DNA of 64,000 bases from assembly GCF_014646815.1 (NCBI RefSeq), contig NZ_BMNZ01000001.1, positions 496,001-560,000 on the forward strand, in the 5' to 3' direction. The notes below the pieces were generated by a model. The model saw nothing but the letters and a program-made list of their open reading frames with translations, had not been told where the DNA came from and made no database searches. The first letter of the stretch is position 1; each line of letters opens with the position of its first letter. The DNA is from Terrabacter tumescens (GTDB taxonomy: Bacteria; Actinomycetota; Actinomycetes; Actinomycetales; Dermatophilaceae). Shown piece after piece: positions 2,903 through 64,000 of this stretch. Made by a program: the position numbers and the translations under genes.

Positions 2903-3391
2903 TCAGGGGCGGGTGACGTAGACGGCCACGCCCCACGTCGCGATGATCGCGAAGGCGGTCCCGAGCTCGATGCCGATGTTGAGCATCACGGCCCGGATCG
3001 CGTGCGTGGTGGCGCGCCAGGCCGCAGCGTGCTCGCGGTGCTTGATGCGCTCGAGGAGGTAGACCGCGAGCACGAAGCCGAGCGGGGCTCCGATCACCGG
3101 GACGACGAAGAAGCCGACCACGGCCACCGCCAGTGCGACGGCGACGACCGCCCCGTCGACGCCGGCAGTCTTCATCCGGCGCCCGGGGAGGACGTACTTC
3201 GCGACGAGGCCCACGGCATACAACACCGTGGCCAGCCCGAGAACGAGCCAACCCGGCCCGTCCTGACGCTCGAACGCCCACACGAGCGTCGCCCCCCAGA
3301 CCACGATGAGTCCCGGGAGCACCGGGACGACGATGCCGACGGTGCCCACGACCATCACGAGCAGAACGAGGACGTTCGTCGCGGTGATCAC
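2903..3391 (-). CDS. DUF456 integral membrane protein
   Basis: A 162-residue protein that is almost entirely hydrophobic. Membrane spans are visible at about residues 5-40, 48-68, 80-115 and 138-158. The motif VLPGLIVVWGATLVWA and the central glycine-rich hydrophobic stretch match DUF456, a family of glycine-zipper-like small membrane proteins with no assigned function. It reads leftward after the DUF7455 gene with a gap of 68 bp, so the two may be one transcript. Function unknown. Confidence 0.8.
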   Translation of the reverse strand: MITATNVLVLLVMVVGTVGIVVPVLPGLIVVWGATLVWAFERQDGPGWLVLGLATVLYAVGLVAKYVLPGRRMKTAGVDGAVVAVALAVAVVGFFVVPVIGAPLGFVLAVYLLERIKHREHAAAWRATTHAIRAVMLNIGIELGTAFAIIATWGVAVYVTRP

Positions 3392-3459
3392 AGGGCAGTC
3401 GTCGGCAGCGTTCGAGTCAGGAGGTCAGGAAAGGGCCGGGTCGGAAGATCGCCTGGTGC

Positions 3460-3684
3460 TCAGCGTTCGTCCACGGGAGCAGAGCCCGGGATCTCGCTGA
3501 GTCGGTCCGTCTCGTCGCGGATGTCGAGAGCCTTGTCCTTCAGCGCCGGGAGGTGCTCCCGTCCGTGGTGCGCGCAGAAGAGCAGCTCTCCGCCGGAAAC
3601 GAGGCGGGCGCGGATGTAGGCCTGAGCCCCACATCGGTCGCAGCGGTCAGCAGCAGTCAGTTCGGGTGCCAGTGCTGTCGTCAT
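3460..3684 (-). CDS. DUF7455 zinc-ribbon-like protein
   Basis: A 74-residue protein with LTAADRCDRCGAQAYIRARL and LFCAHHGREH: a CxxC pair plus a CxHH pair that could bind one zinc ion. This matches the DUF7455 family, short actinobacterial proteins often encoded close to the principal sigma factor and topoisomerase IV genes, as here beside parE. The strong ribosome site GGAGGAAAGAGG precedes the ATG. Function is unknown; a nucleic-acid or RNA polymerase role would be a guess. Confidence 0.8.
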   Translation of the reverse strand: MTTALAPELTAADRCDRCGAQAYIRARLVSGGELLFCAHHGREHLPALKDKALDIRDETDRLSEIPGSAPVDER

Positions 3685-4044: not shown

Positions 4045-6177
4045 GTGGCCTCCGCCTCCCGTCCTGCTCCCTCCGGCAACGGCGACTACACCGCGCGCCA
4101 CCTCCAGGTCCTCGAGGGCCTCGAGGCCGTGCGCAAGCGTCCCGGCATGTACATCGGCTCGACCGACCAGCGCGGCCTCATGCACTGCCTCTGGGAGATC
4201 ATCGACAACGCCGTCGACGAGGCCCTGGCCGGCGTCTGCACCGGCATCGAGGTGATCCTGAGCAGCGACGGCTCCATCGAGGTGCGCGACAACGGCCGCG
4301 GCATCCCCGTCGACATCGAGCCGCGCACCGGCCTGTCCGGCGTCGAGGTCGTCTTCACCAAGCTGCACGCGGGTGGCAAGTTCGGCGGCGCGTCGTATGC
4401 CGCCACGGGAGGCCTGCACGGCGTCGGTGCCTCCGTCGTCAACGCCCTCTCCGCCCGGCTCGACGTCGAGGTCGACCGCGCCGGCAAGACGTACGGCATG
4501 AGCTTCCGCCGCGGCGAGCCCGGCACCTTCACCGACCGGAGCCCGGTGCACTCCCCGGACTCCGAGTTCACGCCCTACGAGAAGAAGAGCGCCCTGCCGG
4601 TCGTCGGCAAGGCCAAGCGCGGCGTCACCGGCTCGCGCGTGCGCTTCTGGCCGGACCGCCAGATCTTCCTCAAGGACGCCGAGCTCGACTACGACGCCAT
4701 CCTGGGCCGCGCCCGCCAGACCTCCTTCCTCGTCCCGGGCCTGCGTCTCGTCATCCGCGACGAGCGCCGCCTCAAGGGCACCCCCGGCGAGGAGGGCCCC
4801 ATCGAGGAGGTCTTCCAGCACGACGGCGGCATCACCGACTTCGTCGAGTTCCTCGCGTCCGACACCCCGATCACCGACGTGTGGCGTCTCGAGGGGTCGG
4901 GCACGTTCACCGAGACGGTCCCCGTCCTCGACGTCAACGGCCACATGACCCCGACCGAGCTCGAGCGCGAGTGCGCCGTCGAGGTCGCGCTGCGCTGGGG
5001 CCAGGGCTACGACACGAAGGTCCAGTCCTTCGTCAACATCATCACCACGCCCAAGGGCGGCACTCACGTCACCGGCTTCGAGCAGTCCATCGTCAAGGTC
5101 TTCCGCAAGCAGATCGAGGTCAACGCGCGCCGGCTCAAGGCCGGCAACGACAAGCCGGAGAAGGACGACATCCTCGCCGGCATGACCGCCGTCGTCACGG
5201 TGCGTCTGGCCGAGCCCCAGTTCGAGGGCCAGACCAAGGAGGTGCTCGGCACCAACGCCGTGCGCGCCATCGTCGCCAAGGTCGTCGAGCAGGAGCTGAC
5301 CGAGCGCCTCACGTCGACCAAGCGCGGCGACAAGGCCCAGTCGGCGCTGCTGCTCGAGAAGGTCGTGTCCGAGATGAAGTCGCGTATCAGCGCGCGGCTG
5401 CACAAGGAGACCCAGCGCCGCAAGAACGCCCTCGAGAGCTCCACGCTGCCCTCGAAGCTGCGCGACTGCCGCACGACCGACGTCGAGCGCTCCGAGCTGT
5501 TCATCGTCGAGGGAGACTCGGCGATGGGCACCGCCAAGGAGGCGCGCAACTCCGAGTTCCAGGCGCTGCTGCCGATCCGCGGCAAGATCCTCAACGTCCA
5601 GAAGGCGTCCGTGTCGGACATGCTGAAGAACGCCGAGTGCGCCTCGATCATCCAGGTCATCGGGGCCGGCTCGGGTCGGAGCTTCGACCTCGCCTCCGCC
5701 CGCTACGGCAAGGTCATCATCATGACCGACGCCGACGTCGACGGCGCCCACATCCGCACCCTGCTGCTGACGCTCTTCTTCCGCTACATGCGTCCCCTCG
5801 TCGACGCCGGACGCGTCTACGCGGCGATGCCGCCGCTGCACCGGCTCGAGGTGATCAACGCCGGGGCGAAGAAGAACGAGCTGATCTACACCTTCAACGA
5901 GCCGGAGATGCGCCGCACGCTCGCCCGTCTCGAGAAGTCGGGCAAGAAGATCAAGCAGCCCATGCAGCGCTACAAGGGCCTCGGCGAGATGGACGCCGAC
6001 CAGCTCGCCGACACGACGATGGACCCGCGCCACCGCACCCTGCGCAAGGTCACCATGCGTGACCTCGAGGCCGCCGAGCGCGTCTTCGAGCTGCTCATGG
6101 GCAACGAGGTGGCGCCTCGCAAGGACTTCATCATCGAGTCCGCCGCCGAGGTCGACCGGGAGCGCATCGACGCCTGA
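4045..6177 (+). CDS. parE: DNA topoisomerase IV subunit B (GyrB/ParE type II ATPase subunit)
   Basis: A 710-residue ATPase subunit that drives strand passage with the ParC-type subunit encoded at 13117-15657. Visible in order: the GHKL ATP site ([37 protein letters not shown]), the transducer domain, then the TOPRIM domain with EGDSAMG and the metal-binding [17 protein letters not shown]. The length suits ParE more than the roughly 800-residue Gram-negative GyrB. The gene is not beside gyrA, and its partner nearby is ParC-like, so topoisomerase IV is preferred over gyrase. The start is the GTG giving [10 protein letters not shown]; its ribosome site is weak. Confidence 0.9.
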
Positions 6178-8522: not shown

Positions 8523-8988
8523 CGCCCCGCCGGGCTTCTACGCCCCCGACCCGTATGCCGCCCGGTGGCTGTGGATCGGCATCGGCATCCTCGCGCTCGT
8601 CGCCGCCTGGTACGCCTGGGTCTGGTGGTCGACCCGGGAGCGCAAGGTCGTCGTGCCGCCACGCGTGGCCCCGGACCGGCTGACGCGGCTGCGCGCGGAC
8701 TACACACGGCAGATCGACCTCGTCCTCGCCCGCGCGGCGGCCGAGGAGATCAGTCAGCGCCGGGCGCACCAGCAGCTCAGCGTCCTCGTGCGCCACTTCG
8801 TCCAGGAGGTCTCCGGCATCGACGCGCCGACCATGACGCTGACCGAGCTCAACGCCAAGGGCTCGCGGCTCACGCCGGTGTCCGAGGTCGTCGGCACGCT
8901 CTACCCGGGCGAGTTCGGGCCGCGCGAGACGGCGACGCTCACCGGCGCCGGCACGGTCGCGAAGCAGGTGGTGGCCCGATGGAGCTGA
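8509..8988 (+). CDS. Single-span membrane protein of the Bat-type operon (DUF4381-like)
   Basis: A 159-residue protein with one membrane segment near residues 18-36 (LWIGIGILALVAAWYAWVWW), then a soluble part predicted to be helical. Position (between DUF58 and the first VWA gene) and layout match the DUF4381-type component of MoxR/Bat operons; sequence identity to that family is not certain by eye. The GTG start lies 14 bp inside the DUF58 gene and the 3' end overlaps the next gene by 10 bp, showing tight coupling. Confidence 0.7.
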   Translation: MPVADAPPGFYAPDPYAARWLWIGIGILALVAAWYAWVWWSTRERKVVVPPRVAPDRLTRLRADYTRQIDLVLARAAAEEISQRRAHQQLSVLVRHFVQEVSGIDAPTMTLTELNAKGSRLTPVSEVVGTLYPGEFGPRETATLTGAGTVAKQVVARWS

Positions 8989-9968
8989 CCGGGCCGGACC
9001 TCAAGTGGCCGGGAGTCCTCGCCGTCGGCACGCTGCTCGCGGTCGTGATCGCGTATGCCGTGTACCGCCTCATGTCGCGCCGGCAGGCTCGCGCGTCGGC
9101 CGCGGTCGCCAACTCGAGCGCGCTCACCGAGCTGCCCGAGTTCCGCAGAGCACTGCGTCGACACCGGATCCGGATGGCGGTGCTCGCCGCGAGCGCCGTG
9201 CTCCTCGGGGGCGCGGCCCTCGTGGGCGCGGCGCGTCCGCTCGACACGACCGTCGACCGTCCGCAGAGCCGCAGCCGCGACATCATGCTGTGCCTCGACA
9301 TCTCGGGCTCGATGGCCGCCTACGACGCGACGCTCGTGTCGACGTTCAAGACGCTCGTCCAGAGCTTCCAGGGTGAGCGCATCGGCCTCGTCATCTTCAA
9401 CAGCTCGGCCGCGACGGTCTTCCCCCTCACCGACGACTACGACTTCATCAACGACGAGCTCGACTCGGCGGCTCGTGCGCTCACCGGCGACCCGGCATAC
9501 GACTCCTTCTTCGCGGGCACCTTCAACGGCCGCGGCACCTCGCTCATCGGTGACGGGCTCGCGACCTGCGTCTCGAGCTTCGACAAGGTCGACCTCCAGC
9601 GGGCGCGCTCGCTCGTCTTCGCGACCGACAACCACCTCGCCGGACGACCCATCATCGACGTCGACGAGGCGGGCGCGCTCGCCAAGGCCAAGGGGGTGCG
9701 CGTCTACGGGCTCAACCCCGAGGAGGACGGCGCCGACCAGGAGGCCACCGACATGCGCGAGATCGTCACCGGCACGGGTGGGCGCTACTACGCCATGAGC
9801 GACCAGTCGGCGATCAAGGGCATCGTGGACTCCGTGCAGGCCCAGGAGGCGACGCTCATCGACGCTGCCTCGCGCTCGCTCTACTCCGACAACCCGACCC
9901 TGCCGATCACGCTGGCCGGGCTGGGCCTGGTCGGCGTTATCGGCGCCACGAGGCGGTGGGCGTCATGA
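8979..9968 (+). CDS. VWA domain membrane protein (BatA/BatB-like), first copy
   Basis: A 329-residue protein with two N-terminal membrane spans (about 12-30 and 67-86), a von Willebrand A domain whose metal site begins DISGS at residue 107 and includes GRGTSLIGDGL, and a C-terminal span (about 307-325). This is the BatA/BatB layout, with the VWA domain held outside the membrane between anchors. The ATG at 8979 overlaps the preceding gene by 10 bp; the stop overlaps the next ATG (ATGA). Function in the complex is inferred from family and context. Confidence 0.85.
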   Translation: MELTGPDLKWPGVLAVGTLLAVVIAYAVYRLMSRRQARASAAVANSSALTELPEFRRALRRHRIRMAVLAASAVLLGGAALVGAARPLDTTVDRPQSRSRDIMLCLDISGSMAAYDATLVSTFKTLVQSFQGERIGLVIFNSSAATVFPLTDDYDFINDELDSAARALTGDPAYDSFFAGTFNGRGTSLIGDGLATCVSSFDKVDLQRARSLVFATDNHLAGRPIIDVDEAGALAKAKGVRVYGLNPEEDGADQEATDMREIVTGTGGRYYAMSDQSAIKGIVDSVQAQEATLIDAASRSLYSDNPTLPITLAGLGLVGVIGATRRWAS

Positions 9969-13120: not shown

Positions 13121-15657
13121 GCGCCGTCCCCGTCCGTGCTGCCGTCGCTGGCGCCGGCTTCGGGGGCCGCCGAGCCGTCGGTGGGCGCGCCGCCGGAGGA
13201 ATGGTTGGCTGCCGGGGGACCGGCGACGTGCGCGATGACCGCGGTCATCGCCACACCGGAACCGTCCCGACGCCCATCGGCTACAGGCAGCTCGATGGCG
13301 ACGCCGTTGGCGGCCGCGGCACGGGCGGGGGTGTTGCCCGCGAAGGCGAGCACGAGGGTGTCCTCGCCCCGGAGGAACCGGTGGCACCGGACGCCTCCGG
13401 TCGCGCGTCCCTTGGCGGGGTACTCCGCATACGGCGTCACCTTGAGCGAGCCGCCCTCGGTGCCCGGGAGGGCGCCCGAGGAGCCGGAGGAGGTGACGAC
13501 GACGCCGTCGCGGGTCGGGTCGACGACACCGAAGAAGACGACGCGCCCGAAGCCCCCCAGCTTGATGCCGGCCATGCCACCGGCCGAGCGGCCCTGTGGG
13601 CGCACGGACTTCGCGGGGAATCGCAGCAGCTGTGCGTCGCTCGTGAGGAAGACGAGGTCGAGGTCGTCACGGTCGGCGACGGCGGCCCCGACGACCCGGT
13701 CGCCGTCCTTGAGGCTGATGATGTCCCAGTCGTTGCTCTTCGGAGCGTCCGGCGTGACGCGCTTGACGACACCGCTCGCGGTGCCGAGCGCCACGACGGG
13801 CGCGTCCGCACCGATCGGCACGATGGTCAGCGGCTCCTCGCCCTTGCCGAGGTCGACGTAGGCAGCGAGGGGGGCGCCGCCGGAGAGGCTCGGCGCGCCG
13901 TTGGTCGGCGGGAGCGTCGGCAGGTCGAGGGCCGAGAGGCGCACCACCCGGCCGGCGCTCGTGACGAGGCCGAACTCGCCGCGGGCGGTCGTGCGCACCG
14001 CGCCGATGACGACGTCGTGCTTGGAGCGCGACCCCTCGGCGGTGATGGGCTCGGCGGTGCCGGTCCGGGCCAGCAGGCCCGTCGAGCTCAGCAGCACCCA
14101 GCACGGGTCGTCGGCGATCTCGAGCGGCGAGGACGCGGTGGCCGTCGCGCTGACACCCGAGCTCTCGAGGAGCACGGTGCGGCGCGGTGTGCCGTGCGCC
14201 TTGGCGACGTCGGCGAGCTCGGTCGAGACGAGCTTGAGGAGCAGCTTCTCGTTCTCGAGCAGGGCCCGCAGCTCCTCGATGGCGCGCTCGAGCTCGGACT
14301 TCTCGTTCTCGAGCTCGATGCGCGAGAACTTCGTCAGGCGGCGCAGCTGGAGGTCGAGGATGTAGTTGGCCTGCAGCTCGGAGAGGTCGAAGACGTCCAT
14401 GAGCCGCGCGCGGGCGGTCGCGGCGTCGTCGGAGCTGCGGATCACCTGGATGACCTCGTCGATGTCGACGATGGCGATGAGCAGGCCCTCCACGAGGTGC
14501 AGTCGCTCCTCGCGCTTGGCCAGCCGGTGCGCGGTGCGGCGCCGCACGACGTCGGTGCGGAAGTCGACGTAGACCTTGAGCAGCTCCTTGAGCCCCATGG
14601 TCCGCGGCTGGCCCTCGACGAGCGCGACGTTGTTGATGCCGAAGTTCTCCTCCATCGGCGTCAGCTTGTAGAGCTGCTCGAGGACGGCGTCGGGGTTGAA
14701 GCCGTTCTTGATCTCGATGACGAGGTTCAGACCCTGCGTGCGGTCGGAGAGGTCCTTGAGGTCGGCGATGCCCTGCAGCTTCTTGCCCTGGACGAGGTCC
14801 TTGATCTTGTCGATGACCTTCTCGGGCCCGACGAGGTAGGGCAGCTCGGTGACGATGATGCCCTTGCGGCGCGGGGTGATCGACTCGATGCGCGCCGTCG
14901 CCCGGGTGCGGAAGCTGCCGCGGCCGGTGAGGTAGGCGTCGCGGATGCCCTCGAGTCCCACGATCTTGCCGCCGCAGGGCAGGTCGGGCCCCGGGACGAA
15001 CTTCATGAGGTCCTCGAGCGAGCACGTCGGGTTGGCGATGAGGTGCCGGGCGGCGCCGATCACCTCGACGAGGTTGTGCGGCGGCATGTTGGTCGCCATG
15101 CCGACGGCGATGCCGGCCGCGCCGTTGACGAGCAGGTTGGGGTATGCCGCGGGCAGCACTCCCGGCTGCAGCTGGGTGTCGTCGTAGTTGGGGACGAAGT
15201 CGACGGTGTCCTCGTCGAGTCCCGCGACCATGAGCAGGGCCGCGTTGGCCATCCGCGCCTCGGTGTACCTCGCCGCGGCCGGGCCGTCGTCGAGCGAGCC
15301 GAAGTTGCCGTGGCCGTCGACGAGGGGCAGCCGCAGCGTGAACGGCTGCGCCATGCGCACGAGGGCGTCGTAGATGGCCTGGTCGCCGTGCGGGTGGTAC
15401 TTGCCCATCACCTCGCCGACGACGCGCTGGCTCTTGACGTGGCCACGGTCGGGGCGCAGGCCGAGCTCGTTGGCGCCGTAGAGGATCCGGCGCTGGACAG
15501 GCTTCAGCCCGTCACGTGCATCGGGCAGGGCCCGGCTGTAGATGACGCTGTAGGAGTACTCGAGGAAGGCGTTCTGCATCTCCTCCTCGACGTCGATGCC
15601 GACGATCTTCTCCTCGAAGTCCTCCGGTGGAGGCGGGGGGGTCTTTCCACGGGCCAT
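13117..15657 (-). CDS. parC: DNA topoisomerase IV subunit A (GyrA/ParC type breakage subunit)
   Basis: An 846-residue type IIA topoisomerase A subunit that cuts and rejoins DNA with the ParE subunit at 4045-6177. The catalytic tyrosine is Y131 in AAARYTEARMA. The quinolone region reads HPHGDQAIYDALVRM, with Gln at the position that is Ser83 in E. coli GyrA and Asp kept four residues on. The tower and coiled-coil follow, then a beta-pinwheel domain from about 500. A GyrA-box (QRRGG-like) is not evident, which supports topoisomerase IV. Start ATG gives MARGKTPPPPP. It is followed at its stop by the Suc_Fer-like gene. Confidence 0.88.
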   Translation of the reverse strand: MARGKTPPPPPEDFEEKIVGIDVEEEMQNAFLEYSYSVIYSRALPDARDGLKPVQRRILYGANELGLRPDRGHVKSQRVVGEVMGKYHPHGDQAIYDALVRMAQPFTLRLPLVDGHGNFGSLDDGPAAARYTEARMANAALLMVAGLDEDTVDFVPNYDDTQLQPGVLPAAYPNLLVNGAAGIAVGMATNMPPHNLVEVIGAARHLIANPTCSLEDLMKFVPGPDLPCGGKIVGLEGIRDAYLTGRGSFRTRATARIESITPRRKGIIVTELPYLVGPEKVIDKIKDLVQGKKLQGIADLKDLSDRTQGLNLVIEIKNGFNPDAVLEQLYKLTPMEENFGINNVALVEGQPRTMGLKELLKVYVDFRTDVVRRRTAHRLAKREERLHLVEGLLIAIVDIDEVIQVIRSSDDAATARARLMDVFDLSELQANYILDLQLRRLTKFSRIELENEKSELERAIEELRALLENEKLLLKLVSTELADVAKAHGTPRRTVLLESSGVSATATASSPLEIADDPCWVLLSSTGLLARTGTAEPITAEGSRSKHDVVIGAVRTTARGEFGLVTSAGRVVRLSALDLPTLPPTNGAPSLSGGAPLAAYVDLGKGEEPLTIVPIGADAPVVALGTASGVVKRVTPDAPKSNDWDIISLKDGDRVVGAAVADRDDLDLVFLTSDAQLLRFPAKSVRPQGRSAGGMAGIKLGGFGRVVFFGVVDPTRDGVVVTSSGSSGALPGTEGGSLKVTPYAEYPAKGRATGGVRCHRFLRGEDTLVLAFAGNTPARAAAANGVAIELPVADGRRDGSGVAMTAVIAHVAGPPAANHSSGGAPTDGSAAPEAGASDGSTDGDGA

Positions 15658-15711: not shown

Positions 15712-16332
15712 TCACGCGTTCTCACCTGCCACGCCGAAACGGCCCCAGTGGGCCACCTCGCGACCGGTGCGCCGGTGGCGACGCAGGCTCGGGCTCCGAG
15801 GTCCCGGGACGGCATACCCGATCGACACGACGCCGACGATCGTGCGCGAGGCGGGGACGTCGAACGCCTCGTGGACGGCCGTGTGCCGCTCCGGCGGCAC
15901 GCCGAAGAAGAGGCTGCCGAGGCCCTCGTCGGTCGCGGTGAGCAGGATGAGGAGCGAGGCCATGCCGGTGTCGACGTCCCAGTAGGGGACGGGCCAGCGC
16001 GCCTCGTCCCGGTCGGTCCACCCCTTGTCGGGTGCGGCGTAGCGGTCGAGGTAGGCGTCCTTGTGCGAGAGGCACAGCACGAGCACGGGTGCCTTGCGTA
16101 TGCCGTCCAGCCACCTGTCGGGGGCCGCGCCCGGTTCCGTGGTGGCCGTCCAGAACGCGTCCCGCTCGGCCGCCGTGCTGAGGACGACGAAGTCCCAGCC
16201 CTGGCTGAAGCCGGCGCTGGGAGAGCGGACGGCGTTGGCGAGGCAGCGCTCGACGACCTCATGGGGGACCGGTCGGTCGGGGTCGTAGCGGCGGACCATG
16301 CGTCGGGAGCGGACGACGTCGGTGAACTCCAT
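15712..16332 (-). CDS. Nitroreductase family protein (FMN-dependent)
   Basis: A 206-residue flavoprotein of the nitroreductase superfamily. The N-terminus MEFTDVVRSRRMVRRYDPDRP has the FMN-binding arginines typical of the family, followed by RSPSAGFSQGWDFVVL and a C-terminal GVPPERHTAVHEAFDVP plus VVSIGYAVPGP. It would use NAD(P)H and FMN to reduce nitro, quinone or similar groups; the substrate is unknown. The ATG at 16332 opens the conserved N-terminus. The gene is divergent from the GNAT fusion gene with only 55 bp between starts. Confidence 0.85.
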   Translation of the reverse strand: MEFTDVVRSRRMVRRYDPDRPVPHEVVERCLANAVRSPSAGFSQGWDFVVLSTAAERDAFWTATTEPGAAPDRWLDGIRKAPVLVLCLSHKDAYLDRYAAPDKGWTDRDEARWPVPYWDVDTGMASLLILLTATDEGLGSLFFGVPPERHTAVHEAFDVPASRTIVGVVSIGYAVPGPRSPSLRRHRRTGREVAHWGRFGVAGENA

Positions 16333-26411: not shown

Positions 26412-26488
26412 CTGTCGTACTGGGCATGCGGACGGCATACGCCCTCGGACGCCCTCAGGGCGCTCCCCGGGCACCGCCCGGACGCTGC

Positions 26489-40065: not shown

Positions 40066-40222
40066 TCGTTCCCGGCGTCCCGGCGTCCCGGCAGGACGTG
40101 CCGTAGCCCCTCGATGGCGTATGCCGTCCGTCACCGACGGGCGCGTCCCCGCCCTCCCCGGGCGGGCCGGTTCGGCCGGACCCGGCCGGGCGGCATACGC
40201 AGTCGGATGGCATGCTCGTCGC

Positions 40223-46235: not shown

Positions 46236-46553
46236 ATGCAGCTCCGAGACGCCACCGACGTGACGACCGCGCCCATCGCCGCCCTCGGACTCGTCGGCGG
46301 CTACGTCGTCGCCCGCGAGAGCGGGGTCCGTCCGCTCGGCGGCGTCGTGCTCGGCGCCGCCGGACTGTATGCCGGCCGCAGCTGGGTCGCCAAGGCCGGG
46401 GGAGGCGCCGCTGCCGGGCTCGCAGCGGTCTACCTCGGCGGCTTCGCCGGGTCGCACGTGCTCGCGAAGAAGATCGGCGCCTGGCCGTCGGTCCTCAGCG
46501 TGGCCGCCGTCAGCGCGGCGGCCTCGTGGGCCGTCGCCGACCGGCGCGGCTGA
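46236..46553 (+). CDS. Small glycine-rich membrane protein, hypothetical
   Basis: A 105-residue protein that is hydrophobic along most of its length with two to three spans (about 12-25, 34-66 and 83-99), rich in Gly, Ala and Val. I do not recognise a family beyond small actinobacterial membrane proteins often placed after dxs. The ATG is supported by the -10 box 7 nt before it and the absence of an upstream ribosome site. Function unknown. Confidence 0.7.
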   Translation: MQLRDATDVTTAPIAALGLVGGYVVARESGVRPLGGVVLGAAGLYAGRSWVAKAGGGAAAGLAAVYLGGFAGSHVLAKKIGAWPSVLSVAAVSAAASWAVADRRG

Positions 46554-53526: not shown

Positions 53527-54452
53527 GTGCCACACCGTCCGCCTTCGTCATCGAGCTGCCGGAGGGCAGCCTCGCCATCCACGACATCAGCCTCGGGTCT
53601 CCCGCGGCCGACGCCCCGGTCGTGCTCGCGGTCCACGGCATCACCGCCAACGGCCTGTCCTGGGCGCGCGTCGCGGAGGAGGTCGGCCGCCGGCACGGCC
53701 CCGGCGCCGTGCGGTTCCTCGCCCCGGATCTGCGCGGACGCGGTGACAGCCGCTCAGCCCCCGGTCCCTACGGCCTCGGAGTCCACGTCGACGACCTCAC
53801 CTCCATCGCGACCGTCTTCGGATCGGCGCCCGTGCTCGTCGGGCACTCGATGGGTGCCTTCGTCGCGGCTCTCGCCGCGGCGCGCCACCCGGAGCGCTTC
53901 CCCGCCGCCGTCCTCGTCGACGGCGGCCTCGCCTTCCCCGTGCCGGACGACCTCGACGTCGACGCCGCGCTCCAGTCGGTCATCGGGCCGGCCATGGACC
54001 GCCTCTCGATGCGCTTCGCCGACCCCACGGCATACCTCGGCTTCTGGGCGGCGCACCCCGCCCTCGGGCCGGTGCTCGAGGGTCCCGGCGGGGACGCCGC
54101 GCGCGCCTACATCGAGCACGACCTCGTGCAGGACCCCGACGACGGCCAGTGGCGCAGCACGTGCGTGCTCGAGGCGATCCGCGCCGACGGGGCCGCCGTG
54201 ATGGCCGACCGGGAGACTCACGCGGGCCTGCGGACGGCCGTCGGGCTCGGCGTCGGGGCCGAGCTCGTCTGGGCCGAGCGCGGCCTGCTCGACGAGCCGC
54301 AGGGGCTCTACGACGAGGCGCGGCTCGCGGCGCTCGGCGTGCCGGAGGGCGTGCGCACGACGAAGGTCGACGCCAACCACTACGACGTGATCCTCGGCGA
54401 CCGTGGGGTCGCGGCCGTCGCGGACGCCCTGGACCGTCAGCTGCGCAGCTGA
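53523..54452 (+). CDS. Alpha/beta hydrolase, last gene of the ABC operon
   Basis: A 309-residue alpha/beta hydrolase: oxyanion HGITANG near residue 39, nucleophile elbow VLVGHSMGAFVAA near residue 100 (Ser), DLRGRGDSRSAP before it and the C-terminal histidine in VDANHYDVIL. It lacks a signal peptide and is cytoplasmic. Coupling by ATGA to the LivM-like permease suggests that it acts on the imported compound, for example by cleaving an ester or amide, which would make the transporter something other than an amino-acid importer. The substrate is unknown. Confidence 0.85.
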   Translation: MSATPSAFVIELPEGSLAIHDISLGSPAADAPVVLAVHGITANGLSWARVAEEVGRRHGPGAVRFLAPDLRGRGDSRSAPGPYGLGVHVDDLTSIATVFGSAPVLVGHSMGAFVAALAAARHPERFPAAVLVDGGLAFPVPDDLDVDAALQSVIGPAMDRLSMRFADPTAYLGFWAAHPALGPVLEGPGGDAARAYIEHDLVQDPDDGQWRSTCVLEAIRADGAAVMADRETHAGLRTAVGLGVGAELVWAERGLLDEPQGLYDEARLAALGVPEGVRTTKVDANHYDVILGDRGVAAVADALDRQLRS

Positions 54453-55528: not shown

Positions 55529-57378
55529 TGCAACGCCCGGAGGCGCAACGCGATCTGCAGCTCCAGGGACTGGTCGGGCTGCTGCCACGACTCGCCGAGC
55601 AGGGCCGTGATGCGCTCGAGCCGCTGCGAGACGGTGTTGACGTGGACGTGCAGGGTCCCTGCGGCGTGCCGCGGGCTCCCGCCGGCGGCGAAGTATGCCG
55701 CGAGCGTCCCGACGAGGTCGGTGCCCCGCCGCTCGTCGTAGTCGACGACGGGCCCGAGCAGCTTGCGGACGTACTCGTCGACGTCTGGCTCGGAGCCCAC
55801 GATGAGCCCGGCGAAGCCGAGCTGCGTCGCGGCCGCGCCCTTGCCGCGGTGGCCGAGCGCGATGAGGGCCCCGACGGTCCGGTGCCCTTCCTCGTGCGCG
55901 TCGGCGATGTCGTCCACGTCGCTGACCGGCCCCACACCGGCGACGGTGACGCACGTGCGCTTGCCGATGCGCGCGGCCACGGCGCGGGCCAGGCCGTCGG
56001 CGTCGCTGCCGGGCACCAGGGCAACGACGTCGCCGTCGTGGGTGCCGACGAGGGAGGCCTCGCCGGTGGCCGCGCTCGCCGAGATGAGCAGGGCCCGGTG
56101 GCCGCCGGGCTCCTCGCCCCGCAGCACGAGCAGGCAGAACGGCTTCTGCGGGTCGAAGCCCACGGTGCGCGCGAGCGTCAGCCGCTCCTCGCGCCCACCT
56201 CGCCTGCTGACGAGGTCGCTGACGAGCCGGTTGCGGGCCGACTGCCGCGCGTCGGCGGCCTGGCGCTCGAAGAGGAGCACGAGAGCCGTCACGACCCCTG
56301 CCCGTTCCACGGTGCGCTGGTCGGAGTCGCCCAGGGTCAGGCCGCCGACGTAGATGGTGCCGAGGCGTTCGCGGGCAGCGGTCACGGCGACGGCGTAGAC
56401 GCCGTCGCGCTCGACGAGACGCCCGGTGCCGAGTCCCGGCAGGGCGTCGAGGGCCGCGACGGGGTCGTGGCCCGATGCGTCGGGCTCGGGGGCGGGGCCC
56501 GCTGCGCTGTGCCGTGCGCCGTTCTCGTCGACGAGGACGGCCCACCCGCCGAGCAGCTCGGCGAGGGCGTGCGTGATGTCGTCGACGCCGCCGCCGCCGA
56601 GCACGAGCGAGGCGAAGCGGTCGTGCGCGGCTGCTGCCTTCTCGACCCCGTCGGCGTAGTGCCGGACCGTCTCGTGGGCGTCGGAGAGCGCTGCCAGGGC
56701 GTTCTCGGCGTCCGCGAGGGCGCGGGTCTGCACCAGGGTGACGGCCGCGAGCGTCGCGAGGTTGCCGAGCAGGCCGACCTCCTCCCGGGTGAACGGTCGT
56801 GAGGAGCGGTTGGCCGCGAAGAGCACGCCGACGAAGTGCTTCTCGACGATGAGCGGGGTCCCGCAGATAGCGATGATGCCCTCCTCGCCGACCGCGCCGT
56901 CGATGGCGTTGGTGTGGCGGAAGCGCTCGTCGGCCCAGTAGTCGGCCGTCCAGTACGGCTTGTGCGTCGACGCGACGAGACCTCCGAGGCCCGCACCGAG
57001 CGCGAGGCGCACCGACTGGAACGCCGCCGAGACCGAGCCGTCGGTGGCGCGCATGAAGGTGTCGCCGGCCTCGGGGTCGTAGAGGGTGAGGTAGGCGAGG
57101 TCGGTGCCGACGAGCCGGCGCGCGCGTCGCACGATGGCGTCGAGGACCGAGCCCGGGTCGCTCTCGGTCGCCAGCTCGCGTGCCGTGTCGAGCAGGGCCG
57201 CGAGCCCGGCCTCACGGTGCTGGTGCACCTCGCGCGCGCCCGTGATCCGCAGCGCGAGGTCACGGGCCTCCGCGGGGGCCTCGGCGGCTGCGATCTCGGC
57301 GACGGAGGCGTCGGCGGCCAGCAGCTCGAGCAGGTGGATGACCTGTTCTGCTGTCGACGTCTCGCTGCGGGTGACCAC
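55516..57378 (-). CDS. PucR-family transcriptional regulator with GAF domain
   Basis: A 620-residue regulator. About residues 60-225 are a GAF sensor domain (LLDTARELATESDPGSVLDA, GEEGIIAICGTPLIVEKHFVG), about 260-400 a less conserved middle, and the C-terminal PucR-type helix-turn-helix is near 540-615 (LVGTLAAYFAAGGSPRHAAG and HVNTVSQRLERITALLGESW). It would bind a small ligand through the GAF domain and act on nearby genes. The leftward 3-hydroxybutyrate dehydrogenase gene begins upstream of it, 49 bp away, so it may be read from that transcript too. Ligand unknown. Confidence 0.88.
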   Translation of the reverse strand: MVTRSETSTAEQVIHLLELLAADASVAEIAAAEAPAEARDLALRITGAREVHQHREAGLAALLDTARELATESDPGSVLDAIVRRARRLVGTDLAYLTLYDPEAGDTFMRATDGSVSAAFQSVRLALGAGLGGLVASTHKPYWTADYWADERFRHTNAIDGAVGEEGIIAICGTPLIVEKHFVGVLFAANRSSRPFTREEVGLLGNLATLAAVTLVQTRALADAENALAALSDAHETVRHYADGVEKAAAAHDRFASLVLGGGGVDDITHALAELLGGWAVLVDENGARHSAAGPAPEPDASGHDPVAALDALPGLGTGRLVERDGVYAVAVTAARERLGTIYVGGLTLGDSDQRTVERAGVVTALVLLFERQAADARQSARNRLVSDLVSRRGGREERLTLARTVGFDPQKPFCLLVLRGEEPGGHRALLISASAATGEASLVGTHDGDVVALVPGSDADGLARAVAARIGKRTCVTVAGVGPVSDVDDIADAHEEGHRTVGALIALGHRGKGAAATQLGFAGLIVGSEPDVDEYVRKLLGPVVDYDERRGTDLVGTLAAYFAAGGSPRHAAGTLHVHVNTVSQRLERITALLGESWQQPDQSLELQIALRLRALQAPA

Positions 57379-58416: not shown

Positions 58417-59946
58417 TCAGATGTCGCGGAAGACCTCGATCGTGGCGCCCAGGGCGTTGAGGCGCTCGGCGAGGTCCTCGTAGCCGCGGTTGATGACGTA
58501 GACGTTGCGCAGCACCGAGGTGCCGGGAGCGGCGAGCATGGCGAGCAGCACGACGACGCCGGGGCGCAGGGCCGGCGGGCACACGACCTCGGCCGCCCGC
58601 CAGCGGGTCGGGCCCTCGACGATGACGCGGTGCGGGTCGAGCAGCTGCACCTTGGCCCCGACCTTGGTCAGCTCGGTGAGGTAGATCGCCCGGTTCTCGT
58701 AGACCCAGTCGTGGATCATCGTGCTGCCCTCGGCGACGGCCCCGATGAGCGCGAAGAAGGGCAGGTTGTCGATGTTGAGGCCCGGGAACGGCATCGGGTG
58801 GATCTTGTCGGTCGGGGCCTGCAGCGGGCCGGGGATCGTCGTCAAGTCGACGAGACGCGTCTTGCCGTTGGCCGAGGTGTACTCCGGCGAGAGGTCGTAC
58901 TTCATGCCCATGCCGTCGAGGGTCGCGAGCTCGATCTCGATGAACTCGATGGGCACCCGGCGGATCGTGATCGAGCTGTCGGTGACGACGGCGGCCGCGA
59001 TGAGGCTCATGGCCTCGATCGGGTCCTCGCTGGGGGAGTACTCGACGTCGACGTCGATGTCGGCGATGCCGTGGACGGTCAGGGTCGTCGTGCCGATGCC
59101 CTCGATGCGGACGCCGAGCTTCTCGAGGAAGAAGCACAGGTCCTGGACCATGTAGTTGGGGCTCGCGTTGCGGATCACCGTCGTGCCGGCGTGCCGGGCG
59201 GCAGCCATGAGGACGTTCTCAGTGACGGTGTCGCCGCGCTCCGTGAGCACGATGGCCCGCTCGGGCGAGACGGACCGGTCGGAGCGCGCCTCGTAGAAGC
59301 CGTGCGTCGCGGTGACCTCGAGCCCGAAGGAGCGCAGGGCCGCCAGGTGCGGCTCGACGGTGCGGGTGCCGAGGTCGCAGCCCCCGGCATACGGCAGCTG
59401 GAAGGCCTCGTGCTCGTGCAGCAGCGGGCCGAGGAACATGATGACCGTGCGCGTGCGGCGGGCGGCCGCGACGTCGATGTCGTCGAGGTTGAGCTCGGCC
59501 GGCGGGATGATCTCGAGGTCGTTGCTGTCGGGGAGCCAGCGCGTGCGCACGCCGATCGAGGCGAGCACCTCGAGGATGCGGTTGACCTCCTCGATGCGGG
59601 CGAGGCTGCGCAGGGTCGTGCGGCCGCGGTTGAGCAGGGCGGCGCACAGGAGCGCGACGGCGGCGTTCTTCGAGGTCTTGACGTCGATCGAGCCGGTGAG
59701 CTTCTGGCCGCCGACGATGCGCAGGTGCTGCGGGCCGGAGTGGCCGAGCGAGACGAACTCCGAGTCGAGCGCGTCACCGATCTTGGCGAGCATGTCGAGG
59801 CTGAGGTTCTGCTTGCCCTGCTCGATGCGGGTCACGGCGCCCTGGGAGGTGCCGAGCAGCTCCGCGAGGTCCGACTGGGTCATCCCCTTGTGGCGTCGCG
59901 CGTCGCGGATGAGTCCGCCGATCCGGGTGAGGTAGGTCTGAGACAC
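58417..59946 (-). CDS. XRE helix-turn-helix domain fused to a MurA-like enolpyruvyl transferase
   Basis: A 509-residue fusion. Residues 8-66 are an XRE-type DNA-binding domain (MTQSDLAELLGTSQGAVTRI). Residues 73-505 are an EPT fold as in MurA, which moves enolpyruvate onto UDP-GlcNAc. The active-site loop Cys is kept (C190, GGCDLGTR) with K93 (TSKNAA) and the C-terminal YENRAIYLTEL. Where MurA has FPTDMQ with the catalytic Asp, this protein reads FPGLNIDN, so standard catalysis is uncertain. The GTG start lies 12 bp from a perfect palindrome, suggesting that the fused domain binds its own promoter. It may be a second MurA, a related transferase or a sensor. Confidence 0.85.
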   Translation of the reverse strand: MSQTYLTRIGGLIRDARRHKGMTQSDLAELLGTSQGAVTRIEQGKQNLSLDMLAKIGDALDSEFVSLGHSGPQHLRIVGGQKLTGSIDVKTSKNAAVALLCAALLNRGRTTLRSLARIEEVNRILEVLASIGVRTRWLPDSNDLEIIPPAELNLDDIDVAAARRTRTVIMFLGPLLHEHEAFQLPYAGGCDLGTRTVEPHLAALRSFGLEVTATHGFYEARSDRSVSPERAIVLTERGDTVTENVLMAAARHAGTTVIRNASPNYMVQDLCFFLEKLGVRIEGIGTTTLTVHGIADIDVDVEYSPSEDPIEAMSLIAAAVVTDSSITIRRVPIEFIEIELATLDGMGMKYDLSPEYTSANGKTRLVDLTTIPGPLQAPTDKIHPMPFPGLNIDNLPFFALIGAVAEGSTMIHDWVYENRAIYLTELTKVGAKVQLLDPHRVIVEGPTRWRAAEVVCPPALRPGVVVLLAMLAAPGTSVLRNVYVINRGYEDLAERLNALGATIEVFRDI

Positions 59947-59957
59947 GACGTCGAGGC

Positions 59958-60007: not shown

Positions 60008-60868
60008 TCAGGGGGCCACGAGCGTGGACACGGGCGTCAGCGGGAGCCACGGGTGCTGCTGATGCCCGGGAACGGGGTCGGCGCGCATCGGGACCCGCTC
60101 CATCAGGAGTGCCTGCCGGGCGACCCGGGCAAGGCCCGGACGGACCGGCCGCAGGACGTTTCCGACCGCCCAGACCACAGGGGTCGGGATGTGAGCGGGA
60201 CGACGGCCGGGCCTCGTCACCAGGCCGGCCAGGGCGGTCTCGGTGAGGTCCTCGCCCGCGACCTCGACGACCTGGCCGTGCAGGGAGGGGTCCGTGCAGG
60301 CTCGGGCGACAGCCACGGCGACGTCGTCGACCGCCACGAAGTTCACGGGGTTGCGGCCCCGGCCCAGGACCTTGGGGACGCCCGATCGGCCGGCCGTGCT
60401 GCGGAAGAGGTCCAGCCACATGTCCGCAAACGCGGTTGCGCGCACGATCGTCCACCCGAGCCCGTATGCCGCCGCCTCCTCCACGAGCGCCGCCTCCGCT
60501 GCTGCCTTCATCCTGAAGAGCTCGATGGGGTGGTCGTCCCGAGCACCCACGATCGACACGAGCACGATGTCAGCGCCCGTCTCGCGGGCGGCTCGGACCA
60601 GGTTGCGGTTGCCGTTGCGGTCGACGGTGGCAGGTGACTCGCCGGCGGCGGGGTCCATGCCGTGCACGGCAGAGACCACGACTCGTGAGCCCGCCAGCGC
60701 GGGGGGCAGCGACGCGGGGTCGCGCACGTCGGCGGCGACGAACTCCGCCCCGGGCACCGGCGTGACCGGTGCCGACCTCCCCGCGGCCCTCACAGGCAGC
60801 CCCTGGGCCACCAGGCGGGCGATGACGAGGCGTCCGAGCCTCCCGGTCCCACCGACCACGGTGATCAT
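60008..60868 (-). CDS. NAD(P)-binding (NmrA-like) oxidoreductase
   Basis: A 286-residue atypical SDR: glycine loop ITVVGGTGRLGRLVIARL at the N-terminus, AEFVAADVRDPASL, VVVSAVHGMD and a YGLGWTIVRATAFADMW segment, all typical for NmrA/NAD(P)H-binding proteins. These act as reductases or redox sensors; no substrate is known. The ATG overlaps the stop of the upstream SnoaL-like gene (ATGA), so it is the second gene of a TetR-adjacent operon. Confidence 0.83.
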   Translation of the reverse strand: MITVVGGTGRLGRLVIARLVAQGLPVRAAGRSAPVTPVPGAEFVAADVRDPASLPPALAGSRVVVSAVHGMDPAAGESPATVDRNGNRNLVRAARETGADIVLVSIVGARDDHPIELFRMKAAAEAALVEEAAAYGLGWTIVRATAFADMWLDLFRSTAGRSGVPKVLGRGRNPVNFVAVDDVAVAVARACTDPSLHGQVVEVAGEDLTETALAGLVTRPGRRPAHIPTPVVWAVGNVLRPVRPGLARVARQALLMERVPMRADPVPGHQQHPWLPLTPVSTLVAP

Positions 60869-61338
60869 GGCTGCGAGGCTCGGTGGGTGCTGGTCTCGTC
60901 GACGGTGTTCCCGACGGAGGGAGCGTGTCCGGCCATGGCGGCGAACACCGCGTCGATGTCAGGGCCGCCCGGCTCGACCGGCGCGGCATACATGTGTGCG
61001 CTGCTGATGCGGCCGTCGGCGATGACGGCGATGAAGACCATCCGGGTCTCCAGTCGTCGGCCGTCCCACCGCGTGCCGACTTGAGTGCCCTCGAGCCAGA
61101 AGCCGGCGTCGGTGACGGCCTTGCCCTCCACGTCCAGGCGCACGTCGGGCACGGCGTTGAACACCGTGTTCCAGTTCTTGCGCACCTGGGCTGCTCCGGT
61201 GAAGGACCGCGCCGGGTGGACGGGGTCCGTCAGGGCGTAGGTCTCGGCGAAGCAGCCGACGAGGCCGTCCAGGTCATGCGCATTCACGGCTGCTACCAGT
61301 CGGTCCAGCACCTGGGTGGGAGTGCGAGTCTTGTCCAT
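60865..61338 (-). CDS. SnoaL-like / NTF2-fold protein
   Basis: A 157-residue protein with the NTF2-like layout of SnoaL polyketide cyclases and limonene-epoxide-hydrolase-type proteins: VLDRLVAAVNAHDLDGLVGC near residue 10, SFTGAAQVRKNWNTVFNAVPD, and a C-terminal beta sheet (MVFIAVIADGRISSAHMY). It may be an enzyme or a binding protein. The ribosome site AAGGGAGACC precedes the ATG, and a TetR-type operator lies between it and the divergent tetR gene. Confidence 0.8.
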   Translation of the reverse strand: MDKTRTPTQVLDRLVAAVNAHDLDGLVGCFAETYALTDPVHPARSFTGAAQVRKNWNTVFNAVPDVRLDVEGKAVTDAGFWLEGTQVGTRWDGRRLETRMVFIAVIADGRISSAHMYAAPVEPGGPDIDAVFAAMAGHAPSVGNTVDETSTHRASQP

Positions 61339-61394: not shown

Positions 61395-62048
61395 ATGACG
61401 TCCGCCGTCAAGGGACCCATGGACGAAGGTCCAAGGCGTCGCTACGACGCCTCCGCTCGTCGCGCGCGCGCCGCCCAACGCCGCGACGCGGTCGTCGCGG
61501 CAGCCCGCAGTCTCTTCCTGGCCCGAGGCTTCGCCGCCACGACCCTCGCCGAGGTCGCGGCCGAGGCGGATGTCTCCGTCGAGAGCGTCTACAAGTGGTT
61601 CGGCTCCAAGGCAGGTCTGCTCAAGGCGGTCTGGGACCGGTCGCTGGCCGGTTCCGGACCCACCCATGCGGAGACGCGCAGCGACGCCGGGTCCCGTGCC
61701 GCCGCCGACGGGTCCGCCATCATCCGGAACTGGGCCCGCCTGGCGGCTGAGGTGGGTGCCGTGGGGGACCCTGTCCACCGGCTCGTCGAGAGCGCCGCCC
61801 ACGTCGACCGCGAGGCCGCCGAGCTCCATGCCCAGATCGAGGGTGAGCGTGCCGCGCGCATGGAGCACAACGCGGCGTACCTCCTCGACGGCGGTTACCT
61901 GCGGGCGGACGTGACCGTGGAGCAGGCCCGGGACGTGCTCCTGCTCTACACGACGTTCTACGGGAGGCTCGTCACCGAAGGGGGCTGGACGTCCGAGCAG
62001 TTCAGCGCCTTCATCGAGCGGGGACTCGCGGCGCACTTGCTGCCGTGA
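61395..62048 (+). CDS. TetR-family transcriptional regulator
   Basis: A 217-residue regulator. The TetR DNA-binding domain lies at about residues 25-75: RDAVVAAARSLFLARGFAAT, LAEVAAEADVSVESVYKWFG with SKAGLLKAVWD. A ligand domain follows. Probably it represses itself and the divergent SnoaL-like/NmrA-like pair. ATG 61395 is chosen since AGAGG stands 9 nt before it; ATG 61386 in the same frame would start almost on top of that site. Confidence 0.88.
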   Translation: MTSAVKGPMDEGPRRRYDASARRARAAQRRDAVVAAARSLFLARGFAATTLAEVAAEADVSVESVYKWFGSKAGLLKAVWDRSLAGSGPTHAETRSDAGSRAAADGSAIIRNWARLAAEVGAVGDPVHRLVESAAHVDREAAELHAQIEGERAARMEHNAAYLLDGGYLRADVTVEQARDVLLLYTTFYGRLVTEGGWTSEQFSAFIERGLAAHLLP

Positions 62049-62127
62049 CGCAGGTCGAGCCCCTCCCGTCGCACGCGTTCGGCACGTGGGACGGGAAGGG
62101 CCCGGTCGCGGGTCCTCGTCAGGCGCC

Positions 62128-64000
62128 TCAGCCGCGTGCGTCGGCGACGCCGACCGGGAGGAACCGCGCGCCGGTGACGGCCTCGGCCACGCCGGTGCGG
62201 TCGAGGAGCGGCGTGATGCCGCCGTTCCAGAACTGGAAGCCGGCACCGGTGATCATCGCGAGGTCGATGTCCATCGGGGCCTGCGCGACGCCCTCGTCGA
62301 GCATCCGGCGCGCCTCGTCGGCGAGGACCGTGAGCACGCGCTCGCGCACCTGGGCCAGGTCGAGCACGACCGGGTCGGCGGGCTTCTCGATGAGCTCGGC
62401 GACCTCGGGGTCGAGGACCGGGCGCCCGGAGCTCAGGTCGTAGAAGCCGCGCTTGCCGGCCGCGACGATCCGCTGGAGCGTCGGAGAGGCGTAGAAGCGG
62501 TCCGGGAACGCCTTCACGAGCGTCTCGCCGTTGTGCAGTGCGATGGCCGGGCCGACGAGCCCGATGAGGACGAACGGCGGCATCGGCGCCAGGCCCGCGA
62601 AGGCGCGGTCGACGACCTCGATCGGGGTGCCCTCGTCGAGGATCTTCGCGGCCTCGCCCATGAAGCGCCCGAGCAGGCGGTTGACGATGAACGACGGGCG
62701 GTCCGCGGCGCGGATGCACGTCTTCTTCAGCGCCTTGCCCACGGCGAAGGCCGTTGCGAGAGTGGCGTCGTCGGTGCGCTCGCCCGGAATGACCTCGAGC
62801 AGCGGCATGACGGCGACCGGGTTGAAGAAGTGGAAGCCGACGACCCGCTCCGGGTGCTGGAGCTGCGAGGCCATCTCGGCGATCGACAGGCTCGAGGTGT
62901 TCGTCGCCAGGACGCACTCGGGCGAGACGACGGCCTCGACCTCGGCGAAGACCTGCTGCTTGACCGACATCTCCTCGAAGACGGCCTCGATGACGAAGTC
63001 GGCGTCGGAGAAGCCGTCCTTGCTCGTCGAACCGGTCACGAGGGCCTTGTAGCGGTTGAGCTTGTCGGGGTTCAGCCGGCCCTTGCCCGCGAGCTTGTCG
63101 AGCTCGGCGTGGACGTAGCCGACGCCCTTGGCGACCCGCTCGTCGTCGATGTCGGTGAGCACGACCGGCACCTGCAGGCGCTGGATGAAGAGCAGCGCGA
63201 GCTGGCTCGCCATCAGACCGGCACCGACGATGCCGACCTTGGTGACGTTCCGGGCGAGGCCCTTGTCGGGCGCTCCGGCCGGGCGCTTGGCACGCTTCTG
63301 CACGAGGTCGAAGGCATAGAGCCCGGCCCGCAGCTCATCGCTCATGAGCAGGTCGGCGAGCACCTCGTCCTCGGCGGCGAAGCCCTCCTCGCGGGTCGCG
63401 GTGCGCGCGGCCGAGAGCAGGTCGAGCGCGGCATACGGGCTCCTGGCCTGGCGGCCGGTCTTGACGTCGGCGAGCTTCCTGGCCTTGGCGATCGCGGCGT
63501 CCCACGCCGTCTCGTCGCGGTCGACCTCGGGACGCTCGACCGTGAGCTCGCCGGACAGCACGCGTGCGGCCCAGGCGATGGACTCCTCGAGGAAGTCGGC
63601 CGGCTCGAGCAGCACGTCGGCCATGCCGAGCTTGTACGCGTCGACCCCCTTGAGCATGCGGTTCTGGCTCAGCGGGTTGTCGATGACGACGGTGAGTGCC
63701 TTCTCGATCCCGACGAGGTTGGGCAGCATCCAGCAGCCACCCCAGCCGGGCACGAGGCCGAGGAAGACCTCTGGCAGCGCGACGGCGGGCACGCCCGCGC
63801 TCATCGTGCGGTAGGTCGCCGACAGCGCCAGCTCGACACCGCCGCCCATGGCCGCGCCGTTGACGAACGCGAACGTCGGGACGGGCAGGTCGGAGAAGGC
63901 GGCGTATGCCGCGTGGCCGGCCTGCGCGATCTCGATCGCCTGGTCGCGGGACCCGATGAACGGCACCCCGGTGAGGTCCGCGCCCACGGCGAAGATGAAC
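62128..64000 (-). CDS. 3-hydroxyacyl-CoA dehydrogenase/enoyl-CoA hydratase fusion, 5'-truncated by the window
   Basis: At least 620 residues of a FadB/FadJ-type multifunctional beta-oxidation protein; the start is outside the window, and the frame is open to base 64000. The visible part opens in the enoyl-CoA hydratase domain (GADLTGVPFIG, FAFVNGAAMGGGVELALSAT, GWGGCWMLPNLVG) and continues with the dehydrogenase domain (VGIVGAGLMASQLALLF near residue 254, VLATNTSSLSIAEMA, VVGFHFFNP). C-terminal 3HCDH domains follow. It hydrates and oxidises acyl-CoA intermediates. It is read leftward and converges on tetR. Confidence 0.9.
   Translation of the reverse strand, partial: FIFAVGADLTGVPFIGSRDQAIEIAQAGHAAYAAFSDLPVPTFAFVNGAAMGGGVELALSATYRTMSAGVPAVALPEVFLGLVPGWGGCWMLPNLVGIEKALTVVIDNPLSQNRMLKGVDAYKLGMADVLLEPADFLEESIAWAARVLSGELTVERPEVDRDETAWDAAIAKARKLADVKTGRQARSPYAALDLLSAARTATREEGFAAEDEVLADLLMSDELRAGLYAFDLVQKRAKRPAGAPDKGLARNVTKVGIVGAGLMASQLALLFIQRLQVPVVLTDIDDERVAKGVGYVHAELDKLAGKGRLNPDKLNRYKALVTGSTSKDGFSDADFVIEAVFEEMSVKQQVFAEVEAVVSPECVLATNTSSLSIAEMASQLQHPERVVGFHFFNPVAVMPLLEVIPGERTDDATLATAFAVGKALKKTCIRAADRPSFIVNRLLGRFMGEAAKILDEGTPIEVVDRAFAGLAPMPPFVLIGLVGPAIALHNGETLVKAFPDRFYASPTLQRIVAAGKRGFYDLSSGRPVLDPEVAELIEKPADPVVLDLAQVRERVLTVLADEARRMLDEGVAQAPMDIDLAMITGAGFQFWNGGITPLLDRTGVAEAVTGARFLPVGVADARG

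Follow-up and report, generated by a model that had tools for sequence, protein, structure and literature searches.

A chromosome-wide DNA word of Terrabacter tumescens and its relatives as a probable DNA uptake sequence core

The DNA word GTATGCCG recurs throughout the genome of Terrabacter tumescens (4.7 Mb in 23 contigs; G000 in our set), including a stretch of 64,000 nucleotides (contig 1, 496001-560000; hereafter the window) in which a preliminary description had noticed its abundance. The nearest named relatives of one protein of this genome come from an unclassified Intrasporangiaceae strain, Terracoccus, and Terrabacter. We consider it probable that the Intrasporangiaceae/Dermatophilaceae group has a DNA uptake sequence with GTATGCCG as its core, a possibility absent from the candidates of that description, which had named a Chi-like site, an FtsK-orienting or architecture-imparting sequence, and a modification site. 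In most features visible in the sequence, the word appears to behave like an uptake sequence, and this reading fits best what is seen: an exact core, flanks that differ between species, inverted pairs predicted to form hairpins, depletion from inserted elements, and patchy occurrence within one family. On balance, and a little less firmly, we also favor the wider proposal that the word serves Gram-positive self-recognition during natural transformation through a Tad pilus, that it was gained near the base of the group and lost repeatedly, and that recombinase elements have repeatedly inactivated the uptake pilus through its motor gene or operon.

Abundance and maintenance of the DNA word

Exact matching finds GTATGCCG 30 times in the window (18 plus, 12 minus), against a mean of 0.72 and a maximum of 4 in 100 shuffles of the window that preserve dinucleotides. 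The shorter GTATGCC occurs 31 times (19 plus, 12 minus), and 30 of these copies continue into the final G while one does not, exactly as had been counted by eye. Across the whole genome there are 2,358 copies (1158 + 1200) of the word and 199 (111 + 88) of its reversed counterpart, and in a 460-kb sample of G000 GTATGCCG is the most over-represented 8-mer of all, with 236 occurrences observed and 11.3 expected under an order-3 Markov model; the over-representation proposed earlier thus extends genome-wide, and the whole-genome count excludes an enrichment confined to the window. Single-base neighbors have no comparable excess in the same sample: the largest in numbers is that of GGATGCCG (96 vs 47), and the few neighbors with a higher ratio were each counted fewer than 8 times. 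Comparison with related genera likewise bears the enrichment out. Among 163 genomes of the family, each at least 90% complete and classed by thresholds of our own, 91 carry at least 600 sites (positive), 12 carry 150-599 (weak), and 60 carry fewer than 150 (negative).

The word could alternatively arise from bias in codons or dipeptides, or from mutation, and this alternative can draw on the frame in which the word is read: 111 of the 164 coding sites in the G000 sample, about two thirds, are xxG-TAT-GCC-Gxx and encode Tyr-Ala (gene context here and in other genomes comes from a home-made gene caller). We nevertheless regard this alternative as having almost no chance of being right. In G000, tyrosine is written TAT in 116 of 141 contexts that build the word (82%), vs 106 of 2622 elsewhere (4%); a smaller sample gives 111/134 vs 90/2404. 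In the context xxG-TAY-GCC-Gxx, seven positive genomes pooled use TAT in 346 of 390 cases (82-95% in each, vs 4-37% elsewhere in the same genomes), and the six of these other than G000 do so in 89/98, 42/45, 39/41, 14/15, 13/14, and 33/36, whereas four motif-negative genomes together yield 0/54. The other frames behave alike in G000, with Ile ATA at 12/92 in word contexts vs 9/4679 elsewhere, and Ala GCA at 30/83 vs 4.6%. These synonymous tests on Tyr, Ile, and Ala rule out a codon artifact. Many sites, moreover, lie outside genes altogether: 236 sampled sites of G000 divide into 164 genic, 68 intergenic, and 4 at edges, with intergenic bases making up 11.2%, and a larger sample places 72 of 253 between genes. 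Expressed as density, this is 1.25 per kb intergenic vs 0.40 genic, and the intergenic enrichment is about twofold or more in G000, G182, and G015, though not in every genome (below).

The word is also kept between species. In counts over every ordered pairing of loci that surround one operon, pairings that are not independent of one another, the seven Terrabacter-group loci (87% identity) retain GTATGCCG at 106 of 136 aligned positions, where ten control 8-mers reach 78 of 254, and the four Knoellia-group loci retain it at 31 of 45, vs 4 of 33; the counts for Humibacillus (18/20 vs 14/19) and Ornithinimicrobium (2/9 vs 0/9) are too few to weigh. The synonymous-codon tests and the retention between species agree in supporting the earlier claim that within genes it is the DNA word, rather than the peptide, that is maintained.

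Flanks, inverted pairs, and strand use

To the core are added weaker preferences in the flanking bases. Over 819 sites from nine genomes, corrected for codon phase, the pooled downstream preferences are T or C at +8, G at +9, T at +10, G at +11, C at +13, C at +14, and T at +18, the last being the strongest (203 observed vs 84 expected), and those upstream are A at -9, -8, and -5 and C or G at -1. They vary by species: G182 and G128 favor C at +8 and G at +9, and T at +18 is significant in G000, G114, and G112. Sites that lie close together are mostly inverted (28 of 34 pairs no more than 60 bp apart in seven genomes, with none in G033), and 17 of the 25 inverted pairs within 45 bp are intergenic. 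Such pairs are predicted to form terminator-like hairpins: six of them, picked as the best looking, fold at -25 to -50 kcal/mol, and 0 of 200 shuffles match them. Spacing in G000 is more even than random (coefficient of variation 0.76 vs 0.96 +/- 0.06).

Both strands are used equally, without replichore bias. Besides the near-equal whole-genome counts given above, assignment by GC skew gives 127 vs 124 over 20 stretches of the complete chromosome of the Knoellia-type genome G114 and 112 vs 141 (p 0.08) in a 0.5-Mb sample of G000, and samples of G182, G128, and G015 show no significant skew. A polar word that guides FtsK (FtsK-orienting polar sequence, KOPS) or shapes chromosome architecture (architecture-imparting sequence, AIMS), as suggested in the preliminary description, would share with GTATGCCG its thousands of copies chromosome-wide. 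The equal use of strands, where KOPS or AIMS would be strongly skewed towards the terminus, argues against a word of either kind and contradicts this explanation, to which we give hardly any credence.

The other recombination-related candidate was a Chi-like site. Chi sites are likewise non-palindromic, over-represented octamers, and a leading-strand skew is usual for them, though not universal. They differ from GTATGCCG in that here no strand skew is seen and RecC (PF04257) has no match in G000 (E 0.001), nor in six of the seven genus-mates searched, while it is matched in 15 of 15 genomes of the motif-negative genus g60; the lack of a RecC match argues against the RecBCD type of Chi, which we reject. 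RecBCD looks patchy in the family generally, with RecC in 80 of 163 genomes, including one of the eight searched in the genus of the window. A Chi-type site might instead be read by another recombination helicase-nuclease, such as AdnAB, as the switch from degradation to recombination. Such an explanation accommodates a non-palindromic exact 8-mer that is over-represented in host DNA and scarce in inserted elements (see below); it does not predict inverted pairs or weak flank contacts out to +18, and the distribution of RecC and the absence of skew speak against it too. We judge it quite unlikely.

Relatives and the candidate uptake machinery

One core word is found across the positive genomes looked at. 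Among the positives with a species name are Terrabacter aerolatus (2163 sites), Knoellia subterranea (2444), Nostocoides jenkinsii (3272), Phycicoccus elongatus (2614), Ornithinimicrobium tianjinense (1758), Flexivirga caeni (2304), and Metallococcus carri (3111). Negatives include Janibacter limosus (32), Intrasporangium flavum (66), and Phycicoccus avicenniae (18), together with two Cellulomonas (18 and 21) and Demequina aestuarii (48). Many of these named genomes, to judge by equal counts, are apparently the same as members of the 163-genome set. The reversed-word control is a rough one, as many negatives (10-100 sites) still exceed it 1.5 to 5 times. Beyond the family, 22 genomes from other families of the order reach at most 167 sites, and only G039 (29 vs 8) and G045 (88 vs 29) exceed the control more than threefold. 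Within it, single species stand without the word inside otherwise word-bearing genera, such as G118 (19 sites; genus-mates 3681 and 1062) and G137 (50; genus-mates 404-1901). On a quick tree of TadB plus TadC (59 loci labeled by density), parsimony counts nine state changes with two weak rows excluded, a number that would be compatible with one gain and several losses.

No replacement 8-mer of comparable strength appeared in samples of 60-120 kb from G009, G118, G091, G058, and G137, in which gapped words were not looked for. We note that in G118 (samples L021 and L037-L041, 120 kb) GTACGGCGT is 12-fold and GTACGACGC 6-fold over-represented, which might reflect codon usage or a different word, and that the top 8-mer of motif-negative G009 (L032-L036, 100 kb) is GGATGCCG, one base off GTATGCCG (53 observed, 12.8 expected).

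The family possesses genes from which an uptake machine could be built. ComEC is matched in 161 of 163 genomes, and the T2SSE ATPases of 20 genomes fall into three main kinds: Flp/Tad, helicase-linked (tad-2-like), and the head of an operon ordered tadA-tadB-tadC-small membrane protein-tadE-tadF-tadG, which we call tad-1-like and which in G000 is divergent from a gene for an FtsK/SpoIIIE-FHA protein. Gene order and the FtsK/SpoIIIE neighbor are common to this operon and to tad-1 of Micrococcus luteus (PMC4322843, PMC8467076, PMC6370729), and the N-termini of TadE and TadF are similar in an alignment that used four short fragments only. Terrabacter aerolatus NBRC 106305 (L172) and Knoellia sinensis KCTC 19936 (L203), both motif-positive, have matches to every one of the seven genes of the operon. 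Like M. luteus, whose competence involves tad-1, tad-2, and comEA/comEC and whose transformation needs both tad loci (PMC4322843), genomes of the family have ComEC and a second, helicase-linked Tad ATPase as well. The phrase 'uptake sequence' is absent from the two M. luteus papers searched for it (PMC4322843, PMC8467076), and the word itself was not counted in M. luteus.

Several genes fail as partners of the word. The helicase-linked Tad ATPase is over the cut-off in 153 of 163 genomes and thus does not discriminate; the type IV pilus protein PilT is over it in a single genome of the 163, and G013 has two pieces of it; and Flp pilin (PF04964) is matched in 83 of 163, with the four genomes of the positive genus g52 lacking a match. 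Most genomes have the tad-1-like operon at least in part. Scored over the 163 genomes by profiles of its small protein and of TadA, it is wholly undetected (both profiles) in 9 of 60 negatives and 0 of 91 positives (Fisher 1.7e-4, not corrected for kinship) and apparently intact in 40 of 60 negatives, 68 of 91 positives, and 7 of 12 weak genomes; in the remaining genomes it is broken, on different contigs, partial, or interrupted. Since 40 negatives keep it apparently intact, the operon is at most necessary and not sufficient, and over long periods it may be required.

In at least 15 of the 163 genomes, G000 included, the operon is interrupted on one contig, at several places, by roughly 4 to 79 kb; interruptions at the named loci fall largely in the same genomes, with Intrasporangium flavum a further candidate. 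In G000, tadA is split at the P-loop by a 5.5-kb element with a serine recombinase identified by Pfam (L151:8212-13689, contig 6 at ~342.2-347.7 kb), and four other inserts (L251, L255, L258, L259) have putative recombinase-like openings by eye. Disruption of competence genes by elements is described from other bacteria (PMC4774983). The word is rare in this foreign DNA: 191 kb of inserts from nine of the 15 genomes, examined whole or in part and including the operon's own tadB and tadC in L260 and L261, carry 12 copies of GTATGCCG vs 88.5 expected at host density (from rounded genome sizes); the reversed word occurs in them 4 times. The inserts are no richer in G+C than their hosts, and composition therefore does not explain the depletion. 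In motif-negative G118 (C1:271-311 kb; L152, L166, L167), the distance between tadABC and the small-protein gene exceeds the usual one by ~37 kb, as would be expected had a large element inserted there.

Taken as an uptake sequence, GTATGCCG would work as follows. A receptor on the cell surface, which could be a minor pilin of the Tad (Flp) pilus specified by the tad-1-like and tad-2-like operons, would bind DNA bearing the word, with weaker, species-dependent contacts downstream at T or C +8 and, in G000 and G114, at T +10, G +11, and T +18. Bound DNA would be pulled in and handed to ComEA/ComEC, and that of kin would recombine into the chromosome. Because word-bearing DNA would be imported more often, the word would be copied back into the population and spread, settling where harm is small, chiefly by synonymous replacement of TAC with TAT and in intergenic DNA. 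We infer both that uptake involves a reading of the word and which protein does the reading.

A number of observations weigh against an uptake sequence. The intergenic enrichment is slight in G114, G033, and G119 and reversed in G128 (0.80 vs 1.04 per kb); spacing is about random in G114 and G182 and less even in G128; and T at +18 is not significant in G182, G128, G015, or G033+G119. Some positives (g16, g52) reach only 2.5-3 times the reversed-word control. On the side of the machinery, ComEC and the tad-2-like ATPase do not separate positives from negatives, and so many motif-negative genomes retain an apparently intact tad-1-like operon. Conversely, the strong positive G025 (2535 sites) has no match to the small protein and a partial TadA, the positives G109, G141, G144, and G146 have weak TadA matches only, and the tadA of G000 is itself interrupted. 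Nor is the core that of the neisserial uptake sequence (below). Membership among uptake sequences is accordingly unproven, because uptake and receptor rest on inference, 40 negatives keep the operon, and intergenic enrichment and spacing vary by genome.

Some of the same facts would suit a DNA-binding or DNA-modifying system of another kind, unrelated to uptake, be it a nucleoid protein, a methyltransferase, or something akin to the process that underlies cyanobacterial HIP1. The family shares the word but its state has changed many times, HIP1 is likewise patchy in distribution, the uptake reading comes without a known receptor, and the 40 operon-keeping negatives are at home here. Against such a system stands the finding that complete non-detection of the operon is confined to motif-negative genomes. 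HIP1 is palindromic, whereas GTATGCCG is not its own reverse complement, and restriction sites are usually avoided, not enriched, which counts against modification. We hold this explanation to be unlikely.

If an uptake sequence is what GTATGCCG represents, it would have arisen independently in Actinobacteria, with a different pilus and cell wall; natural transformation would be predicted in many soil and sludge genera, offering a route to transform them; and the question of what reads an uptake word could be tested in a second kind of machine. Titles and abstract openings of open-licence literature on uptake sequences or competence in Actinobacteria, Micrococcales, Intrasporangiaceae, Terrabacter, and M. 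luteus contain no such claim, and DNA uptake is not a topic in the titles listed for papers containing the letter string GTATGCCG.

Sites in the window and likeness to known uptake systems

The window holds 58 genes by our own calls, and the 20 large proteins scanned with Pfam belong to ordinary chromosomal genes, for example those for gyrase/topoisomerase subunits, aconitase, DXP synthase, and ferrochelatase. The plus-strand starts reported earlier are retained in the table below, and our gene calls put four sites between genes, as many as had been reported; the minus-strand starts had been placed one position too high in 11 of 12 cases and two too high in the other (54030).

Table 1. Occurrences of the word in the window, in window coordinates.
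Feature	Position	Strand	Context	Basis
GTATGCCG site	3214..3221	-		exact match
GTATGCCG site	4395..4402	+		exact match
GTATGCCG site	8553..8560	+		exact match
GTATGCCG site	9053..9060	+		exact match
GTATGCCG site	9493..9500	-		exact match
GTATGCCG site	15142..15149	+		exact match
GTATGCCG site	15810..15817	-		exact match
GTATGCCG site	16098..16105	+		exact match
GTATGCCG site	19906..19913	+		exact match
GTATGCCG site	24058..24065	+		exact match
GTATGCCG site	25798..25805	+		exact match
GTATGCCG site	26433..26440	-	intergenic	exact match, gene calls
GTATGCCG site	29475..29482	+		exact match
GTATGCCG site	31385..31392	-	intergenic	exact match, gene calls
GTATGCCG site	33733..33740	+		exact match
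GTATGCCG site	34294..34301	+		exact match
GTATGCCG site	36754..36761	-		exact match
GTATGCCG site	40119..40126	+	intergenic; half of inverted pair 72 bp apart; ~110 bp behind aconitase gene	exact match, gene calls, Pfam
GTATGCCG site	40191..40198	-	intergenic; second half of inverted pair with 40119	exact match, gene calls
GTATGCCG site	43648..43655	-		exact match
GTATGCCG site	43916..43923	+		exact match
GTATGCCG site	46367..46374	+		exact match
GTATGCCG site	50414..50421	+		exact match
GTATGCCG site	54028..54035	-		exact match
GTATGCCG site	55693..55700	+		exact match
GTATGCCG site	59385..59392	-		exact match
GTATGCCG site	60464..60471	+		exact match
GTATGCCG site	60984..60991	-		exact match
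GTATGCCG site	63429..63436	-		exact match
GTATGCCG site	63904..63911	+		exact match

Uptake signal sequences (USS) of the Pasteurellaceae have weaker flank preferences around the core and occur roughly once per 1-2 kb, like GTATGCCG, and both this family and the Neisseriaceae are Gram-negative. It is from these two families that uptake sequences are described (PMC1939737). The USS also has a short exact core, no general orientation bias, and inverted intergenic pairs, and one orientation is commoner in reading frames, as here (PMC2346458). The differences are that the words are unrelated and that here the hosts are high-GC Gram-positives in which, with PilT over the cut-off in that one genome alone, the candidate machine is a Tad pilus.

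The DNA uptake sequence (DUS) of the Neisseriaceae is likewise over-represented, forms inverted pairs associated with terminators, and is absent from some genomes of its family, according to PMC3630211, which also reports that the CTG core (as in GCCGTCTGAA) is essential. The 7-mer ATGCCGT is common to the context of GTATGCCG and to ATGCCGTCTGAA, the DUS as given in PMC2346458. Our flank consensus seemed to match the full DUS, but the counts do not bear this out: TCTG follows the site 5 times in the sequences examined and at 5 of 817 sites in the flank set, and for this reason GTATGCCG is not the neisserial DUS. The two systems differ further in their variety, as several dialects exist among the Neisseriaceae and a single core word is seen in the positive genomes looked at here.

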